Shown here: one piece after another, positions 44,148 through 51,642 of the stretch
Layout of the letters: every line of letters begins with the position of its first letter
Numbering within the stretch: the stretch's first letter is position 1
From: Lacipirellula parvula
Lineage (GTDB): Bacteria > Planctomycetota > Planctomycetia > Pirellulales > Lacipirellulaceae
Reading direction: 5' to 3'
NCBI RefSeq assembly: GCF_009177095.1
Contig: NZ_AP021861.1
Coordinates: 3,268,501-3,332,500 of the forward strand
Length of the DNA stretch: 64,000 bases
Notes under the pieces: generated by a model
Databases searched by the model: none
Told to the model about the DNA's origin: nothing
The model's input: only the letters and a program-made list of their open reading frames with translations
Position numbers and translations under genes: made by a program

Positions 44148-44202
44148 AACCGATTGGCGAAGCTGTCGAGTGCGTAATTCGCTTAAGGTGCTCGCGGGCC
44201 CT

Positions 44203-44516
44203 TTACCTCGGCGAACTGTTGTCAAGAACGCTGCCTTGCCCCACCATTGATCGGTTTTGGTTTGGATAAAGCGAGAATCGAATTCCACGAGCCCGCGATT
44301 TCGGCGAGCGACGATCTAAGCGGTTAAGTTCCGACAGCCCTTGCAATAACGCCAAGTGAAGTTTCAACCCTTCGTCTAGCGTCAGATCGATCTCGATTGG
44401 CTTCGAACTCTCAACAGGGATCGAGGGCTTGATTTGATGTAAAAAAAAATGACACCGTAGCTCTGCAGCTTTTTCTCACGCAGTTTCGCCGATTTTACTT
44501 TCTTCTTTTTGGCCAT
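44203..44516 (-). pseudogene. Small lysine-rich protein, frameshifted copy 1
   Basis: This is a copy of the gene at 50367-50678. It starts MAKKKKVKSAKLREK from ATG 44516 with GGAG upstream and follows its partner to GVIF. There, nine Ts (plus-strand A9 at 44441-44449) shift the frame by two bases. After the shift the second frame continues the partner's sequence (LTLDEGLKLHLALLQGLSEL, then SRARGIRFSLYPNQNR) to a stop at 44203. It may be a dead copy or a homopolymer slippage site. Confidence 0.7.
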
Positions 44517-44653
44517 GTGAAGCTCCGAATAAATGTAGGACGTGGTAAGGAACGGGCGGTTCAGCCCGCTCCAACCGAAATTTTACCGACTTTGAGTTCC
44601 GTCTGAGTTACTTCCCGTATAGCGATTTCATTTTTCTGACGCTGACGACGCCC

Positions 44654-44682
44654 CTGCACCGATAGAACCCTCGTGCTACAAT
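44654..44682 (+). promoter_or_regulatory. Promoter of cold-shock-like gene, copy 1
   Basis: CTGCAC at 44654-44659 and TACAAT at 44677-44682 form -35/-10 boxes with a 17-base spacer, in the same place and spacing as in copy 2. The following sequence, AGCACTAAGACAGCGAAGGC, is conserved in both copies, so transcription probably starts near 44690. Confidence 0.6.
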
Positions 44683-44689
44683 AGGAGCA

Positions 44690-44967
44690 CTAAGACAGCG
44701 AAGGCGTATGCGAGATGCTTTGCCGATGGCAGACGTTGAACAGTTCCTGAAGCTGCGAAACGTTTAAGTTGGCCCTTCTTCTTGTTGAACTCTGCCCTTC
44801 ATCCTGACCGGCCTTATGCCAGTCTTCGGCGATGTTGACCCACCGTGTGGGTCAGATTGCTTTCTTACGCTGAGCGCCTGGCAACAGGCCTCTGGAGCCC
44901 ACCCGATTGTAGTTGCACGGTGCGCGGGTGGTGCCGTCTGAGAGAACTGCGTGCAGGAGAATTTGAC
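44690..44967 (+). ncRNA. Conserved structured 5' leader RNA, copy 1
   Basis: About 280 bases precede the cold-shock-like start codon and are conserved with 50906-51184 although they do not code. Hairpin P1 is TGACCCAC/GTGGGTCA (44836-44854). Hairpin P2 is GAG-c-GCCTG, loop GCAA, CAGGC-CTC (44872-44892). A longer helix pairs CCACCCG with CGGGTGG (near 44898-44930). In copy 2 the same helices are kept with compensating or wobble changes. CspA-type mRNAs are known to use long leaders as temperature sensors; a similar role here is inferred. Confidence 0.6.
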
Positions 44968-45162
44968 GTGTCGCAAGATACTATTAAGAAATTGACTGAC
45001 AAAGGCTTTGGCTTCATTCAAGGCGACCGTGGAGATATATTCTTCCACTCGTCCTCGGTTGAAGGGGCTGGTTTCGACAGCCTCTATGAAGGCCAAGCCG
45101 TGCAATACAACGAAGGCATGGAGCCCAAGGGGAAGCGGGCTGAGAATGTCCGCGTGAGCTAA
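44968..45162 (+). CDS. Cold-shock-domain-like small protein, copy 1
   Basis: From GTG 44968 (CAGGAG eight bases before) the protein has 64 residues. GFGFIQGDRGDIFFHSSSVEG carries the RNP1-like (GFGFI) and RNP2-like (IFFHSS) aromatic motifs of the cold-shock fold, and the protein continues with YEGQAVQYNEGMEPKGKRAENV. Such OB-fold proteins bind single-stranded RNA or DNA and help melt RNA structure in the cytoplasm. It is nearly identical to copy 2 (51185-51379). The larger open frame that starts at 44845 belongs to the leader and is not needed. Confidence 0.88.
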   Translation: MSQDTIKKLTDKGFGFIQGDRGDIFFHSSSVEGAGFDSLYEGQAVQYNEGMEPKGKRAENVRVS

Positions 45163-45197
45163 TCACTCGACGCGCATTAACTAACGTGGTGTATTGA

Positions 45198-45230
45198 AAC
45201 GCCGGAAAGCAGGGCCTGCTCTCCGGCGTT
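45198..45230 (+). terminator. Hairpin terminator of cold-shock-like gene, copy 1
   Basis: AACGCCGGAAAGCAG at 45198-45212 pairs with 45216-45230 with a single mismatch, around a 3-base loop. It lies 35 bases after the stop codon, and a matching hairpin follows copy 2. Confidence 0.75.
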
Positions 45231-45285
45231 TGCCATTTCAGGACTTCAGGTGATGCGATCGCTTGTCACGCGAGCTGAGTCACAA

Positions 45286-45528
45286 TCACCTCGTAGATCT
45301 CTTCTCGTCTACTTCGGCGCTGCGTAACGTCATACCTGTCCAAGGGATTGCGTCGCGAACGAACATTCCCTGCGTTCCGTGAGAGATGGCGAGAAACGTC
45401 CCGTGCCCGTCGTCGTAATGACGGGCCTCGACGGCATGGCCTGGCGCTGTGCGTCCGTCAGCGGCGAAGTACCACTGACCATCAATTTGCCAAGCGTAGA
45501 CATCCGGCAGCCGATTAGATGAGGTCAT
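45286..45528 (-). CDS. Hypothetical protein, 80 residues
   Basis: The frame encodes a compact, Trp/Tyr-containing sequence (VYAWQIDGQWYFAADGR) with balanced composition and a charged C-terminus. No family is recognised and the ribosome-binding site is poor. It lies convergent to the cold-shock-like gene with its terminator between them, which is consistent with a real gene. Confidence 0.45.
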   Translation of the reverse strand: MTSSNRLPDVYAWQIDGQWYFAADGRTAPGHAVEARHYDDGHGTFLAISHGTQGMFVRDAIPWTGMTLRSAEVDEKRSTR

Positions 45529-45726
45529 GATTTTTTCACCCGCGACGAGTTGAAAAGACGCCTCGAATTCTCGGTGAATTTTTTTACCATTTCGGACTGC
45601 CGATTCAATCAGCGCCGGTGGAAATGAGCCTGACTTTTCGTTAATCTAGCGTCCCCATTTTCCTTCGAAATTGTTAGTTCCATCCGTAATTATCCCCAAT
45701 GTTGTGGAGGCAATGGGAAGTTCACC

Positions 45727-45936
45727 ATGACCGATCGTAATTCCGGCTCCAGCGCTGACGAAGTCTCGGTGCTGATCGCCATCGAAGCAAGAATTGACAC
45801 AGCGATGGCCCACCTCATTCGCAAAAAGCAAACCGTCGCCGATGGGGACAGTGCTCAAGCTGCAGTCCTCGCTGAATTACGTGAGGTAAGGGCAGCGATC
45901 CGAATTTTGCGAGACCGACAACGTCGGTCTCGATAG
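45727..45936 (+). CDS. Hypothetical helical protein, 69 residues
   Basis: From ATG 45727, with GGGAAG seven bases upstream, the protein is mostly helical with regular Ala/Leu/Ile spacing (AIEARIDTAMAHLIRKK, AAVLAELREVRAAIRILRD) and a basic tail, suggestive of a short coiled coil. The family is not recognised. The minus-strand frame over the same place looks less protein-like. Confidence 0.5.
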   Translation: MTDRNSGSSADEVSVLIAIEARIDTAMAHLIRKKQTVADGDSAQAAVLAELREVRAAIRILRDRQRRSR

Positions 45937-46208
45937 TCCAGTTATCGACAATTCTAGAGATCTGGGATGCGCCCTACGGCGCACAGGTCGGCCAGCGCAG
46001 TAAGCTATGGTGCGGATGCCTCTCACTCAGGTGAATGCACGAACAACCACTAGCTGCAAAAATTCGCTCAGGGCGATAGCACAGCGCACGCAAGTTCTTT
46101 CACAGCGCCGAGTCCATCAACTCCGCTTACTTGCATCCGGTCAGAAACTTCATTCGAATACTCAGGACCCGCTCCGCGCCGCCTTTGGTAGAATTGAAAG
46201 GAAGTGCC

Positions 46209-47024
46209 ATGCGCTACCTCCTCCTGATCGCTCTCCTCGCTGCAGGAAAAGCCGCCGCTGCCGACCCGGCATTCGAACGCCCCGCAGGGCCGGCCATGGA
46301 AGTTCTCGCCCTGCTGCAAAAGGTCACGCCAACCTCCTCCCGTGATGAGCTTCAGCAGACAGCCGCGAAGGGAGCGGCCATACTGACTCCGCAAAGCCCG
46401 GCCGCCGTCACTCTTACGGAAGTCGCGACCAGCGACCAGTCAGTCGATGAACTGCAGGCGAAGCTGGGGCAAGTGCGTGACGATCTTGCCTTCGAGCCGC
46501 TTCGCGAGGCCGAGCTTCCGGCCAATTTCCCCACTTACACGCCGCCCGGCGTTATCGAACTGAAAATCTATCCGAAGAACCGGCGCGCCGTCGCCAAAGA
46601 GTTCTTTCCTCTATTCGCCCATATCACCCGCAATAAAATTGCCATGACGGCCCCGGTGCGAATGGAATTCGACCGCAACGACGCTGGCGAGCTTCAGCAA
46701 GAGTCGATGGCTTTTTACTACGGCGATGCCGACAGCGGCGAGTTGGGTCCAGACGATAACGACAGCGACGTCAATACAATCGCCGACGACGGGCAATCAG
46801 TCGTCGCGCTCGGCCAGCGGGGACGATGGAATCGCAAGAAGGTCGCCCACGGCGAGCAGCTCCTACGCCAATGGCTTAAGGCAAATCCCAAATACGAAGC
46901 CGTCGAAGGAGTTGTCCTCATGGGCTACAACAGCCCGATGACTCCCACCGCCCGGCAATTCTTCGAAATCCAGCTTCCCGTCATTGAAGCCAGCGCCGAG
47001 AAAAGGCAACCGGGCGGGAACTAG
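46209..47024 (+). CDS. SOUL heme-binding family protein, secreted
   Basis: From ATG 46209 (AAGGAAG upstream) the protein has 271 residues with a signal peptide (MRYLLLIALLAAGKAAAA). The SOUL domain spans about residues 110-260: VIELKIYPKNRRAVA, the NKIAMTAPV motif, and the partner YNSPMTPTARQFFEIQLP. SOUL proteins relate to vertebrate heme-binding proteins; bacterial members are of unsure function and many lack the heme ligand. An acidic insert (DDNDSDVN) sits in the middle. The longer frame from 46131 lacks a signal peptide. Confidence 0.85.
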   Translation: MRYLLLIALLAAGKAAAADPAFERPAGPAMEVLALLQKVTPTSSRDELQQTAAKGAAILTPQSPAAVTLTEVATSDQSVDELQAKLGQVRDDLAFEPLREAELPANFPTYTPPGVIELKIYPKNRRAVAKEFFPLFAHITRNKIAMTAPVRMEFDRNDAGELQQESMAFYYGDADSGELGPDDNDSDVNTIADDGQSVVALGQRGRWNRKKVAHGEQLLRQWLKANPKYEAVEGVVLMGYNSPMTPTARQFFEIQLPVIEASAEKRQPGGN

Positions 47025-47702
47025 TCGACCAGAAGCGTTACATCGTCATTCCGAATGCTGCAAAGAACATGTAAGCGTACTTAACTCGGCCAAGCCAAAA
47101 CGCCTCTCTCTACCTCGCCGCGACTACGCTCAGCCTCAGCTTGCAAGCTTTGTCGCTGTAAATTAAATGCGGCACCGCGAAAACTCTGTCCGCGGATCTA
47201 CTCACGCTAGCCGCAGCCGCTCAGGAAGTTCCCAACCGCACCTAACTAGTCGCTACGGAGCTTCGGGATCGTCTGGGACAACGTCGCGCGGGGGCATTGC
47301 CGTAACGTGCACCGCCGCCGCCATAATCACCGCACCATCGTTGCTCCGTAACGAAGCCCGTGCGTGTTTGATTCCGCATGTTGGACTGCAATGCGGCGAG
47401 ACACTCCATCTGAAGATCGCTTCAAAGCTTTATAAGCAGGCTTCTCAGATGCAGTCAAAATGGCAGGACGCGAAGGGTGGAAGAAACAAAATTGCCATTT
47501 TGGCAACCCCTCCGTACCGGCTTCTGATACGACACTAGTCGCAACTATTTGGAGAATTACCACTTACGACACATCGTGGCGCAAAGGTCTCCTTCGGCAT
47601 GCTCCTTGCCATCGCGTGCTTCTGACGGCTCGAAGCCAGTCAGAGATAGGGCAAGCCGTCAGTCGTACAAGCATCTCTAGATTTTCGACGGGAGGAATCG
47701 CC
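47025..47702 (+). other. About 680 bases without a supported gene
   Basis: A frame at 47167-47538 has low-complexity Ser/Arg-rich composition and no ribosome-binding site, so I do not call it. The last 150 bases probably hold the promoter of the Hsp20 gene. I see no CIRCE-type repeat. Confidence 0.4.
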
Positions 47703-48122
47703 ATGAATAGCGCTTTGGTCCGCAATCGTCTGCCCAACCATGTAGGTGAGTTTGGTTCGATGATGGAGCAGTTCCTGAGTGCTCACGCCGGATCAGGCAT
47801 TCAGGCCTACTATGTCCCAGCGAGCATCTCTGAGGATTCTAATGCCTACCAGATTGAGCTCGATGTGCCGGGCGTAATGCGTGACGACGTCGAGTTAACG
47901 TTTGAGAAAGGGATGCTCCGCATCACCACAGAGCGCCGAGCACCGGATGAGAGCCGAAAAGGCTTGGTCGACGAACGTCGTTACGGACGGGTGACTCGTA
48001 CCGTGACGCTGCCCGAAACGATTGATCCGGATTCGATCACAGCGGAGCTCAATAACGGGGTGCTACACGTTTCGGTTTCAAAGAAGCCTGAAGCGCAGCC
48101 TAAGCGGATTGAAGTTCGTTGA
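47703..48122 (+). CDS. Hsp20 family small heat-shock protein
   Basis: The ATG at 47703 follows GGGAGGAATCGCC and gives 139 residues. The alpha-crystallin domain covers about 38-139: YQIELDVPGVMRDDVELTFE, a strand pair (LRITTERR), RYGRVTRTVTLPETID, and the A-x-x-N-G-V-L motif AELNNGVLHVSVSKK. It binds unfolding proteins in the cytoplasm as an ATP-independent chaperone. The C-terminal IEV resembles the IxI anchor. The longer frame from 47460 is leader. A strong hairpin follows the gene. Confidence 0.93.
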   Translation: MNSALVRNRLPNHVGEFGSMMEQFLSAHAGSGIQAYYVPASISEDSNAYQIELDVPGVMRDDVELTFEKGMLRITTERRAPDESRKGLVDERRYGRVTRTVTLPETIDPDSITAELNNGVLHVSVSKKPEAQPKRIEVR

Positions 48123-48160
48123 TGCGACGCTGGCGCTGATCGCCGACATCGCGCATGGCT

Positions 48161-48198
48161 CGTTGAGTGAGGTTGCGCCATCGCAACCTCGCTCAACG
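48161..48198 (+). terminator. 17-bp hairpin terminator of hsp20
   Basis: CGTTGAGTGAGGTTGCG at 48161-48177 pairs with 48182-48198 with one G-T wobble and loop CCAT, 38 bases after the Hsp20 stop codon. There is no T-run, but the stem is very stable. Confidence 0.7.
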
Positions 48199-48234
48199 GA
48201 TCTGCAGTTTCTCAGTCTTGTGGAGTAAATCGCC

Positions 48235-48648
48235 ATGAGTGCTGCGACTCTGAATCAATCGTCGCGCAAGTCCGATCTGTTGCGCCGGAGTTCAAATACC
48301 GAACGACTTCCGGCAAGTGGTACTGGCGAGCGTGGTAACGGCCCGCGCCAATCGAACGCTGCGGATAGCCCGCATACAAATCGTCGTGTATCTGCTCGTC
48401 CCAGGCCAATCGAATCTGCTAGCCGCAGCGACCAACTTAATCGGGAAGCGGTCCGATTCTCGTTGCCGCTGGTATTTTTGATCATTGGCTACGCAGTCGG
48501 ATTCTTCCTGGCCTTAATCTCGCTGCTGGACCTCGCCCTCGGCATGCCTTTCTACAGAGCTAGTGCGCTGTATGACGCCGGCCTGTTTGTTGCCAGCGTC
48601 ATCCTTCTCTACCTCAGTCACGATGCTAGGGACGGGGTGAGGGGATGA
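48235..48648 (+). CDS. Hypothetical membrane protein with disordered N-terminus
   Basis: GGAGTAAATCGCC precedes ATG 48235. The 137 residues divide into a polar Ser/Arg/Asn-rich N-terminal half (1-75) with no fold signal and two transmembrane helices (about 79-102, SLPLVFLIIGYAVGFFLALI, and about 113-132, DAGLFVASVILLYLS). I do not recognise a family. It follows the Hsp20 terminator, so it should have its own promoter. Confidence 0.6.
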   Translation: MSAATLNQSSRKSDLLRRSSNTERLPASGTGERGNGPRQSNAADSPHTNRRVSARPRPIESASRSDQLNREAVRFSLPLVFLIIGYAVGFFLALISLLDLALGMPFYRASALYDAGLFVASVILLYLSHDARDGVRG

Positions 48649-48700
48649 GGTCTATCTGACGAGGTGACGAGGTATTGACATTCTAACGCATAGCAAGCAA

Positions 48701-49090
48701 ATGAGTGACGTAGCTCTATCCGACCCACTCGGCCTCGAACTCTTCTTGCAGCGGCCCGGGACTGACGACGCGAATCGTATTCCGACGACGCGAGGCGACG
48801 AGGGAGAACAGCTGTACCCGGAGCTCGATGCCGACGGAGATCATGTTCACTTTGAGATGGTGCCGATGGGCGGCGACTCGATGCTCTGGCTGACTATTCG
48901 GCGCGGCACTTCTCCCAAACAAGCAGTTAGCGCACTGCGTAAGATTGCCGATCTGATCGAGCGTCACGGCGACCGCATATTGAGGCTACTTCAGGGCGGG
49001 CAGGGTTCGTTTAGCGCGAGTGGCGAAGTGATCTCGGGGGCGTTGCGGCTGGAATATGATACCAACGGAGATCTAATCATCCCTGAGTAG
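48701..49090 (+). CDS. Hypothetical soluble protein, 129 residues
   Basis: The protein is acidic at first (GDEGEQLYPELDADGDHVHF), then has a regular alpha/beta pattern with a long helix (PKQAVSALRKIADLIERHGD) and a Gly-rich turn. Composition is ordinary for a folded cytoplasmic protein. There is no clear ribosome-binding site and no family is recognised. It lies 52 bases after the membrane-protein gene on the same strand. Confidence 0.55.
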   Translation: MSDVALSDPLGLELFLQRPGTDDANRIPTTRGDEGEQLYPELDADGDHVHFEMVPMGGDSMLWLTIRRGTSPKQAVSALRKIADLIERHGDRILRLLQGGQGSFSASGEVISGALRLEYDTNGDLIIPE

Positions 49091-49803
49091 CTTTGTGACG
49101 TGAGAGGAATAGGCAACAGCGATTGCATGTGCAGTGCGTCATCACGCGTTGACTCATTGCAACCACGCAGGAGCCTGCCATGGGAGTATCTTGTCGTATG
49201 CGTGCGCTATTCGTCGGGCAGGTCGGCCGGTTCTCAGCTTGACCTATGGTAATTACCTTACACTCAACCGACGCCACCTACTCGCCGAGGCAGACGCCAA
49301 GCAGGTTCGCACTCGCCGCAGCCACGGGACGCCGTTAATGGATTTGCATTTCTGAAACGGAGCAGCTCGTAAGTCACGTCACTTGGAAGGCGATGCGGAT
49401 CTGTTTGGAGTGGCATTACCTAAGCCTCGCAATGGAGTATGCAATTGCGTTTGGGCGCTTACTCGCACGCGATTGCGCCTCGGCGATTTGGAATCAAAGA
49501 AGAGTCTATCGCGGCAAGTGCACTCAACGAGCTTACCCACTTACTCTGGTCCCCAGTGGTCTGCTTGGGATCCCCGTCTCAGTCGCTTGGAGCGCAAGGC
49601 GCAGGTGAGATAAGCGCTGACTGCGAATCCGCCGACAGTGGTTTTGCTGCTGCTTCTCACGTTCGCGTTCGCTTTACAAAATCGTAGCGATGGCCACGCC
49701 AACCGGGCAAGAGGACGAATATCCCGCGCGCGTCGGTGTTCACGACCTGCGCGGGTTATGACTGCTATGTTGAGCGGCGGATTCTGATTCTGCGGTCCGA
49801 AAT
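49091..49803. other. About 700 bases without a supported gene
   Basis: Several overlapping frames of 60-125 codons occur (around 49134, 49383, 49541), but they have Arg/Ser-rich shadow-like composition and no start signals. Near 49780 the block GGATTCTGATTCTGCGG repeats the one before copy A of the small repeated ORF. Confidence 0.4.
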
Positions 49804-50007
49804 GTGTTGTCGAGCGAAGACTTAGGCCAGACAGGGCAGGGCTGTTGCACCTATTTTTGCACCCTGGTCGAGGTGAGCGTCCAGCTCGCACGTCTGATAA
49901 CGGCGTGGCCTGCACTTACCCCCAGGCAGCGACGTTGGCTCGAATTATTGCTTCCAGCCGGCGCACAAGACGATCGCAAAGTAAACCAACGTCCCACTGC
50001 TAATTAG
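49804..50007 (+). CDS. Small protein of a repeated family, copy B
   Basis: The frame from GTG 49804 gives 67 residues with the conserved core CTYFCTLVEVSVQLARLITA and a helix ending WPALTPRQRRWLELLLP. It matches copy A (36560-36772) at protein level, and many differences between them are conservative or synonymous. No start is certain: the shared upstream block is in a different frame here. Function unknown. Confidence 0.4.
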   Translation: MLSSEDLGQTGQGCCTYFCTLVEVSVQLARLITAWPALTPRQRRWLELLLPAGAQDDRKVNQRPTAN

Positions 50008-50366
50008 CTGCGGTCAGGACAACCTCTGTGCGACGCGTCCATTAATGATTTGGCCGCAGATTGACCTAGTCGCACACGGCGAAATGGAACCAGAGGAGCC
50101 GGCGACGTTGCTGACAGCCGCACCAAGTCCGGCGACGAGCGCCATTGCCGGCCACTGCCGCTAAGCCCGAGAAGGCAGCGTTGTAGCCGAGTGACTCAGC
50201 GACTAGGCCACCGCCCAATTGAAGCTATGTCGCTCATCGGTTCGCGGCCCCGCAAGCCAATTCGGGTAATGGGGTGCTTCGACTCTGCTGGCGTCTACAC
50301 CAAAATGAGCCGCGTCACGGGCGGCCCCGGTGGCTTATCGCGCGGCCGCACAAGCAAGTTGGCGCG
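50008..50366. other. About 360 bases without a supported gene
   Basis: A frame at 50191-50424 overlaps the end of the lysine-rich protein gene on the other strand and has no start signal. I see no repeats or RNA features here. Confidence 0.4.
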
Positions 50367-50678
50367 TTACCGAGGTGCACTGTTGTCTTTGACGCTGCCC
50401 TGTTCCACCATTAGACGATTCTGATCTGGGTAGAGCGAGAAGCGAATTCCGCGAGCCCGCGAGCGCGGCGAACGTCGATCGAGCCGGTTAAGCTCCGACA
50501 GCGCCTGCAGTAGCGCCAAGTGAAGCTTCAGCCCCTCGTCGAGAGTCAGATCAATTTCGATCGGTTTAGGACCGTTGACCGGAATCGGCGGCGCGATTTG
50601 ATCCAAGAAAATGACGCCGTAGCTTTGCGGGTTCTTCTCACGCAGTTTGGCTGACTTAGCTTTCTTCTTCTTTGCCAT
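50367..50678 (-). CDS. Small lysine-rich N-terminal protein, intact copy 2
   Basis: From ATG 50678 (GGAG seven bases before) the protein has 103 residues. It opens MAKKKKAKSAKLREK, has a middle with PPIPVNGPKPIEIDLTLDEG, and continues with a helix (GLKLHLALLQALSELNRLDR) and a basic part (SRARGIRFSLYPDQNR). Composition suggests a cytoplasmic nucleic-acid or ribosome-associated protein, but I know no family. It is divergent from the cold-shock-like gene in both copies of the duplication, so the two products may act in one response. Confidence 0.7.
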   Translation of the reverse strand: MAKKKKAKSAKLREKNPQSYGVIFLDQIAPPIPVNGPKPIEIDLTLDEGLKLHLALLQALSELNRLDRRSPRSRARGIRFSLYPDQNRLMVEQGSVKDNSAPR

Positions 50679-50870
50679 GGAAATCTCCGAATACGCTGTT
50701 TGAGCGGGGTATGAATTTCGCGGTTTGCATATTAAACGGCCGCGATAGTACTCGTCTGAATCTTTAATTTCAATCGGCGTGACTCAATTTCGTAGCCTTG
50801 ATAACGCCGCTGCACGCGCCTGCGGGATTAATTTCTCAGTTGTCGCAATACACTCACGCCATGAAACTGA

Positions 50871-50899
50871 TTGCTCCGATAGAGTTATTGTGCTATAGT
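50871..50899 (+). promoter_or_regulatory. Promoter of cold-shock-like gene, copy 2
   Basis: TTGCTC at 50871-50876 and TATAGT at 50894-50899 have a 17-base spacer. Their position relative to the leader is the same as in copy 1, which supports both calls. Confidence 0.65.
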
Positions 50900-50905
50900 T
50901 GAAGC

Positions 50906-51184
50906 ACTAAGACAGCGAAGGCATATGCGAGACGCTTCGCCGAATGTGACCGTTACGTCGTCCTTAGGACCTCGCAATGGCTGCTTCGGCCCTTCTTCTT
51001 GTTGACTTTTGCCCTTCATCTTTACCAGATCAAGCTGGTTCTTGGCGATGTTGATCCACGGTGTGGGTCAAATTGCTCTCTTACGTTGAGTGCCCGGCAG
51101 CGGGCCTCGAAAGCGTCGCCCGATCGTAGTTGCACGGTGCGCGGGTGCGCCATTCACGAGAACTGCGTGCAGGAGTAATGTTAA
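50906..51184 (+). ncRNA. Conserved structured 5' leader RNA, copy 2
   Basis: The leader matches copy 1 in length and in several blocks (CACTAAGACAGCGAAGGC, GGCCCTTCTTCTTGTTGA, TAGTTGCACGGTGCGCGGGTG). P2 is GAG-t-GCCCG, loop GCAG, CGGGC-CTC (51088-51108): the fourth stem pair (T-A in copy 1) is now C-G, a compensating change. P1 keeps pairing through a G-U wobble. GCAGGAG just before the start is the ribosome-binding site in both copies and could be masked or exposed by folding. Confidence 0.6.
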
Positions 51185-51379
51185 GTGTCGCAAGGTACTA
51201 TCAAGAAGTTGACTGACAAGGGTTTTGGCTTTATTCAAGGCGACAGTGGAGATATTTTCTTCCACTCGTCTTCGGTAGAAGGCGCTGGTTTTGACAGCCT
51301 CTACGAAGGCCAAGCCGTGCAATACAACGAAGGCATGGGCCCCAAGGGCAAGCGTGCCGAGAATGTCCGGATTGGTTAA
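51185..51379 (+). CDS. Cold-shock-domain-like small protein, copy 2
   Basis: From GTG 51185 the protein has 64 residues and differs from copy 1 at only a few positions (for example SGDIFF for RGDIFF and MGPKGKRAENVRIG at the end). The GFGFI and IFFHSS motifs of the cold-shock fold are kept. It is a little shorter at the N-terminus than typical CspA (about 70 residues, MxGxVKWF), because the usual first strand is replaced by MSQGTIKKLTDK. Expected role: RNA chaperone. Both copies look functional. Confidence 0.88.
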   Translation: MSQGTIKKLTDKGFGFIQGDSGDIFFHSSSVEGAGFDSLYEGQAVQYNEGMGPKGKRAENVRIG

Positions 51380-51414
51380 TCGCCAACCGAGCATTCACTG
51401 ACGTGATGCACCAG

Positions 51415-51445
51415 ACGCCGGAAAGCGCCAGTCGCTTTCCGGCGT
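51415..51445 (+). terminator. Hairpin terminator of cold-shock-like gene, copy 2
   Basis: ACGCCGGAAAGCG at 51415-51427 pairs perfectly with 51433-51445 around CCAGT, followed by TTCTTATTG. It lies 36 bases after the stop codon and matches the hairpin after copy 1. Confidence 0.8.
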
Positions 51446-51642
51446 TTCTTATTGTGCAACTAGAAGACCCATCGTCGGCCCCACCGCCGGACTAGGGGCA
51501 AAATCAAACGTCGAAAGCGCTGATTCCAATCGTCGTCGGCCAGCCCGAACGGCCAGCGCGCCGCCTGGCTGATGGGGCGCGGCCACTACGATCGATATGA
51601 CGACCGTCAAGGCACCAACTTCTTATAGTTAGCGGGGCTACG

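Follow-up and report, generated by a model that had tools for sequence, protein, structure and literature searches.

A stretch of 64,000 nucleotides (nt) from Lacipirellula parvula (contig NZ_AP021861.1, positions 3,268,501 to 3,332,500 of the forward strand), referred to below as the window, carries two cold-shock protein (csp) genes, each behind a leader of about 280 nt. Comparison of this leader with its relatives suggested a new class of cis-regulatory RNA, which probably controls translation of one group of csp genes in the order Pirellulales, and we put the probability of this reading at roughly 0.62. Central to it is an H-type pseudoknot, P4, in which GCACG in the loop of hairpin P3 pairs with a CGUGC strand lying just before the Shine-Dalgarno (SD) sequence. 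An earlier note on this DNA had proposed a new regulatory RNA; its description of a long, structured csp leader held, and it was incomplete in that the pseudoknot and the non-AUG start codons had been overlooked.

A probable conserved pseudoknot next to the Shine-Dalgarno sequence

The leader core was found before 31 of 110 csp loci, and the five core pairs of P4 can form in every one of these 31 leaders, with the 5' strand placed by eye. The pentamer itself varies, reading CGTGC, CGCGC, CGTAC or CGTGT on the SD side and GCACG, GCGCG, GTACG or GCATG on the P3-loop side. Changes on both sides of a pair were seen within the core, from C-G to U-A in L106 and from A-U to G-C in L008 and L011. In copy 1 of the window the strands TGCACG and CGTGCA lie at 44914..44919 and 44950..44955, the latter abutting the 5' side of GGAG (44956..44959); in copy 2 they lie at 51131..51136 and 51166..51171, followed by GGAG at 51172..51175. 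All leader and csp coordinates refer to the plus strand. In 22/31 leaders 0-2 nt separate the end of the CGTGC-type pentamer from GGAG; in the four leaders of a second Pirellulales family the distance is six nt, and GAGAG replaces GGAG in L116-L118.

The strongest covariation came from a sixth pair that extends the core outward. It is U-A in 6 leaders, A-U in 9, G-C in 7 and G-U in 1; the other eight leaders have a mismatch there, U-U in seven and A-G in one. Watson-Crick pairs thus occur in 22/31 leaders, compared with a permutation mean of 9.8 and a maximum of 20 in 20,000 trials (p < 5e-5). When one leader per lineage was kept, the count was 11/15 against 5.0 expected (p = 8.5e-4). By covariation this pair ranked first among 1176 column pairs, and first again among the 2145 of a second alignment. 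In alignment A5 (26 leaders), which was fitted to P3 and not to P4, 98.5% of P4 cells were paired.

Leader-bearing genes start with GTG or TTG

The genes behind the leader and P4 start with GTG (27) or TTG (4), so that all 31 are non-ATG, whereas all 79 other csp loci start with ATG. The same contrast was found within genomes that hold both kinds of csp gene, such as the window genome. A protein search found five csp genes in this 6.9-Mb genome, of which L001-L004 have the leader core. The remaining one, L005, starts with ATG and is preceded by a different sequence.

One of the 79 loci counted as lacking the leader core, L103 (G042 C1:446893), lies in the same genome as L124 and shows 5' leader features by eye, with no P4 and an ATG start. 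L103 favours a coupling between leader and start codon, and may be a case in which the control unit was lost naturally.

Distribution of the leader

The csp loci were gathered by protein search, 80 from named genomes and the rest from 43 Lacipirellulaceae genomes, whose matches gave 69 new loci (29 + 40). Among the 80, 43 (L038-L085 except five) were set aside as non-planctomycete by title, and two verrucomicrobial loci, L016 and L037, were retained. After removal of these 43 and of duplicates 106 loci remained, and RNA-model searches of the second family added 4. The leader core is present in at least 19 of the 43 Lacipirellulaceae genomes. It also occurs in a second Pirellulales family (four genomes) and in two metagenome-assembled genomes named only as Pirellulales (L008, L011). 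The figure of 19 is a lower bound because some Lacipirellulaceae csp matches were left out, namely seven at E 3.8e-17 to 8.5e-15 and any weaker than 1e-9. Thus homologous leaders do stand before related genes in other genomes, where the earlier note had named their absence as grounds for giving up its proposal.

Two covariance models were used. Model R2, trained on 26 of the 31 leaders, found 30/31 leader loci at E up to 0.05, and even with E allowed up to 1 it matched none of the 79 other csp loci. Among the five leaders outside its training set, L004, L007, L192 and L193 were found and L008 was missed. With stricter filters, under which weak matches are lost, R2 found the leader in 4/241 genomes of the second family, and among 294 genomes sampled across the phylum matched only the window's own genome. 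Model R1 gave a match at E 0.01 or better in 52 of 396 genomes of the order, and its best 19 matches there (E up to 7.8e-6) all lay directly before csp genes. The weaker R1 matches were examined in part: 15 loci (L177-L191) were checked by tblastn, which showed a csp gene beside the match in three and none in twelve, and eight of these twelve were read. A first search with a pseudoknot descriptor matched 23/106 csp loci, compared with 15.6 expected from shuffles. The matches were concentrated in the leader loci, 22/27 (6.2 expected from the summed listed rates) versus 1/79 of the others.

Anatomy of the leader

The 5' block could be placed in 21 leaders, here called full-length, which measure 255-363 nt. 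In 20/21 of them the best sigma-70-like hexamer pair reaches a score of 8-10 of 12, its end lying 5-10 nt ahead of the conserved start; the exception is L002 with 6 of 12, and the second hexamer fits TANNNT in 17/21. In some genera (L097, L104, L106, L114, L116-L118, L123 and L125) the leaders have the 3' core and seemingly lack the 5' part. From 5' to 3', with blocks recognised by eye, the leader holds hairpin P0, which surrounds a GGCGAYGCGAGA-like block, then the GGCCCTTCG-containing block, P1, a TTTGCTCYC block, P2, P3 and the SD sequence.

In the window, the -10 box is TACAAT in copy 1 (44677..44682) and TATAGT in copy 2 (50894..50899), with the conserved leader start at 44688 and 50905, respectively. 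Each promoter scores 8/12, and a promoter scan with a cut-off of 9 reported neither. P0, read by eye, pairs GCGAAG with CTTTGC in copy 1 (44698..44723) and with CTTCGC in copy 2 (50915..50940). A conserved pyrimidine-rich block, also by eye, follows at 44771..44803 and 50988..51020; in copy 1 it ends TGCCCTTCATC, of which the family form is GGCCCTTCG. By eye, the P0 5' strand CGAAGG is complementary to a conserved CCTTCG in the GGCCCTTCG block downstream, a possible alternative fold; at the complementary sites L011 has CGATGG with CCGTCG.

The three hairpins described in the earlier note were all recovered. P1 (44835..44855 and 51051..51071) has the strands TTGACCCAC/GTGGGTCAG in copy 1 and a G-U pair in copy 2; in eight close Lacipirellula leaders 97.2% of its cells are paired, with 2 pairs changed on both sides. 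Next comes the candidate anti-SD block, TTGCTYTC in copy 1 (44857..44869; motif search in 31 leaders) and TTGCTCTC in copy 2 (51073..51085). P2 folds between this motif and P3, and its core is GCCTG/CAGGC in copy 1 (44876..44889) and GCCCG/CGGGC in copy 2 (51092..51105), with the one-base bulge kept. The position of P2 is constant while its sequence varies, as in the same-genus leaders L098 (GTCGCTCTA/TGGAGCGAC) and L099 (GCCGCTCCA/TGGGGCGGC). P3 reads CCACCCG/CGGGTGG in copy 1 (44899..44931) and CGCCCG/CGGGTG in copy 2 (51117..51147), and its loop carries the P4 5' strand. Over 22 leaders the mean folding z was -1.2 for P1 and -1.2 for P2, and P3 lay above shuffles with a mean z of 1.2 over 31 leaders. 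The folding z-scores are modest and would not convince alone. Two copies alone cannot prove that paired changes go beyond chance, and the wider family bears the argument.

An upstream reading frame of 13 codons over P1 (ATG TTG ... TGA) is open in both copies and in L006. It was rejected as conserved because L002 and L004, read by eye, lack the ATG.

Proposed mechanism

A helix directly before GGAG would fall under the footprint of a bound 30S ribosomal subunit. We propose that P4 lies inside this footprint and hinders or positions the subunit, so that initiation at the weak start codon would require the leader to open or refold, and the ease of opening the knot would set the initiation level. 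A conserved UUUGCUCYC block farther upstream may offer the SD sequence an alternative pairing partner. The TTTGCTCYC motif is present in 19/31 leaders, and in 17 of these it precedes the P4 5' strand by 55-62 nt; in L100 and L101 its match to the SD region is seven pairs long. The trigger could be binding of Csp to its own leader or cooling; under autoregulation, the pyrimidine-rich blocks might serve as Csp sites. Autoregulation is a natural candidate because, according to PMC9947658, CspA of Escherichia coli stimulates translation of its own mRNA when that mRNA is in the less accessible form. A broader proposal, which we hold tentatively and at somewhat less than even odds, is that the pseudoknot, the alternative anti-SD helix and the non-AUG start form one RNA switch unit through which temperature or Csp sets translation, and that this unit arose in Pirellulales independently of the enterobacterial cspA thermosensor.

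Weighing the evidence

Several results weigh against a new regulatory class. Leader membership was first recognised by eye, partly through a GCACGG motif, and automatic placement of the P4 5' strand differed from that by eye in six leaders (L004, L122, L095, L192, L104 and L097). Three of the six P4 pairs are nearly invariant. Under a tree-aware null the sixth pair reached E 0.28 or 0.23 over all pairs with two trees, and E 0.1 in the second alignment (30 rows, with L095 misaligned); limited to the six proposed P4 pairs, a post hoc choice, the test gave about 0.001. The significant covariation sought in the earlier note was therefore obtained by plain permutation, but not alignment-wide under the tree-aware null. 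Because the tree-keeping test is harder to pass than the permutation, we regard P4 as well supported by the comparison of leaders, not proven. For P1 and P4 together in the eight close leaders, 80/500 shuffles gave equally high covariation. The whole leader (265 nt, n = 22) had a mean folding z of -1.1, only slightly below shuffles. P3 was singly significant (p ≤ 0.05) in 6/31 leaders, and 67.3% of its cells pair in A5; it is consistent but weaker than P4. Anti-SD pairing, scored with each leader's own versus swapped SD sequences, was not significant (p = 0.08, with the motif in 19/31). The best non-csp match of R1, L179, has E 8.6e-6, so chance matches begin just below the true ones. In the protein tree, which is poorly resolved, the leader group needs 5 changes and well-supported branches force 1. 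The link between start codon and leader can be largely an inherited association, perhaps one event, because the tree forces only one change. The leader group formed one side of a branch in 0/200 bootstrap trees.

Four other explanations were considered. If the leader were an RNA thermosensor on the model of E. coli cspA, temperature alone would refold it, and the SD sequence would be exposed in the cold. In favour of this, the leader belongs to a csp gene, and published accounts treat the long leaders of cspA in E. coli, cspA in Listeria and cspB/cspC in Staphylococcus aureus as thermosensors or thermoswitches. Alternative pairings (TTGCTCYC with the SD sequence) also exist on paper. Against this, pseudoknot-free partition functions for the 31 leaders gave a predicted unpaired probability of the SD sequence of 0.25 at both 5 °C and 15 °C, which rose to 0.27 at 25 °C and to 0.30 at 37 °C, and 72 other csp genes followed the same trend (0.28 to 0.36). 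No cold-opening signal was present in this folding at four temperatures, pseudoknots being outside the energy model. Temperature sensing, as the earlier note had suggested, is so far unsupported by these predictions, in which SD access is slightly lower at 5 °C than at 37 °C, and we consider a pure thermosensor rather unlikely. P4 might also be a static element, a ribosome standby site or mRNA protection that does no switching. Such a role would suit the CGUGC strand, which ends beside GGAG and not across it (0-2 nt before it in the 22 leaders above), but the long conserved 5' domain of the full leaders exceeds what a standby site needs, and the weak start codons throughout fit a controlled gene better; on these arguments a static role is unlikely.

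Transcription attenuation would make P1 followed by UUGCUUUCUU an intrinsic terminator, and in copy 1 the scan did list this hairpin with its tail among terminator-like structures, with 0.8 such entries expected by chance. The tail is broken by G and C, is unflagged in copy 2 and reads GCTCCC in second-family leaders, which makes attenuation very improbable. It could finally be argued that the two leaders are alike as products of an ordinary recent duplication, with paired changes by chance. The unit was indeed copied together with the divergent gene described below, and covariation between two sequences is weak evidence. The presence of the leader core in at least 19/43 Lacipirellulaceae genomes and in another family, with P4 in 31/31, already contradicts duplication as the full explanation, and we give it next to no weight. 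A regulatory leader that acts on translation is the reading we prefer.

The two csp units of the window

The duplication of csp units with leaders of about 280 nt, reported in the earlier note, is real. The units lie 6.2 kb apart, and their leaders align end to end with 76% identity over a 291-bp stretch of copy 1. The csp genes (44968..45162 and 51185..51379) both start with GTG, 8 or 9 nt after GGAG, and encode 64 amino acids (aa). The two proteins are 94% identical over residues 2-63. A Pfam scan, which covered the copy 2 protein only, matched it to CSD (E 2.2e-17, 63.1 bits against a cut-off of 27), and copy 1 was judged by the 94% identity. The nearest named csp, that of Lacipirellula limnantheis, is 97% identical. 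The terminator hairpin of copy 2 (51413..51447) was flagged by the scan; that of copy 1 (45198..45231) was read by eye and was not flagged.

On its upstream side the repeat unit takes in a divergent gene for a protein of 103 aa. The frame of this gene is intact in copy 2 (50367..50678, minus strand) and broken in copy 1 (about 44200-44520, minus strand), where the alignment shows two extra bases beside an A run. The 103-aa protein begins with a lysine-rich N-terminal start and has no Pfam match; a relative with 83% identity also adjoins a third leader-bearing csp gene of the genome (L002). A 105-aa frame that enters copy 1 from upstream was rejected, since its counterpart is absent from copy 2, where the open frame measures 64 aa. 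Between the two csp units lie a SOUL heme-binding gene (46131-47024) and an Hsp20 gene (47703-48122). Because the Hsp20 gene sits between the csp units, heat- and cold-shock genes are adjacent here.

Relation to known csp leaders and riboswitches

Rfam includes a cspA leader family. The window gave 0 Rfam matches, and the leaders gave nothing at E up to 5; raising the limit to 10 brought six matches, each with a score far short of the gathering threshold. In 16 related loci the only match was a tRNA, with none to the leader. The leader matches nothing in Rfam 15 and is set apart from the cspA thermosensor family, in agreement with the earlier note, to which it looked unrelated in sequence to cspA leaders. 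The preQ1-II and SAM-II riboswitches are translational H-type pseudoknots with the 3' strand at the SD sequence, and P4 has the same layout. Unlike in these riboswitches, the 3' strand here mostly stops just short of GGAG, which stays free, the gene that follows has no metabolic role, and Rfam has no match. The gene context of the leader offered no ligand candidate for a riboswitch reading.

Controlled csp leaders are a known kind, since examples exist in E. coli, Listeria and S. aureus. In the E. coli cspA mRNA the SD sequence is exposed in a large loop in the cold form (PMC9947658). The Lacipirellula leader resembles this system in being a long untranslated csp leader with probable control at the ribosome-binding site; the E. 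coli protein also acts on its own mRNA (PMC9947658). It differs in the conserved pseudoknot that abuts the SD sequence, the non-AUG starts in 31/31 and the lack of an Rfam match. According to PMC8155936, the cspA thermoswitch of Listeria monocytogenes controls translation by exposing the SD sequence. This thermoswitch and those of S. aureus cspB/cspC are likewise csp leaders controlling translation, but they belong to another phylum. No earlier description of a planctomycete csp leader was found in the literature covered, which mostly excludes subscription papers and includes the available parts of PMC11109978 and PMC8632094.

Other upstream regions were noticed among the csp loci. The ATG-started gene whose protein begins MAEGTIKKLI and its relatives (L005, L028, L030, L032, L033, also L023 and L027) share another conserved upstream region, opening GGGGTCGTATCGAGTCAAACCCC-like by eye, which looks like a second csp leader family; those of L005 and L023 had no Rfam match. 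Two more groups were seen by eye, of the GATTGCGGTT type (L024, L025, L017, L019, L029 and L031) and the GGACGGATTCGACGTCTCCTGG type (L014, L015 and L018). Pirellulales csp genes may thus have several unrelated leaders.

Controlled csp leaders have so far come from few model bacteria, and a pseudoknot-based leader in a distant phylum would show that leader-RNA control of csp genes arose more than once. The leader offers a compact, testable pseudoknot that flanks the SD sequence, and the clean split between non-AUG and ATG starts makes these genes a natural case for the joint evolution of start-codon strength and leader structure.

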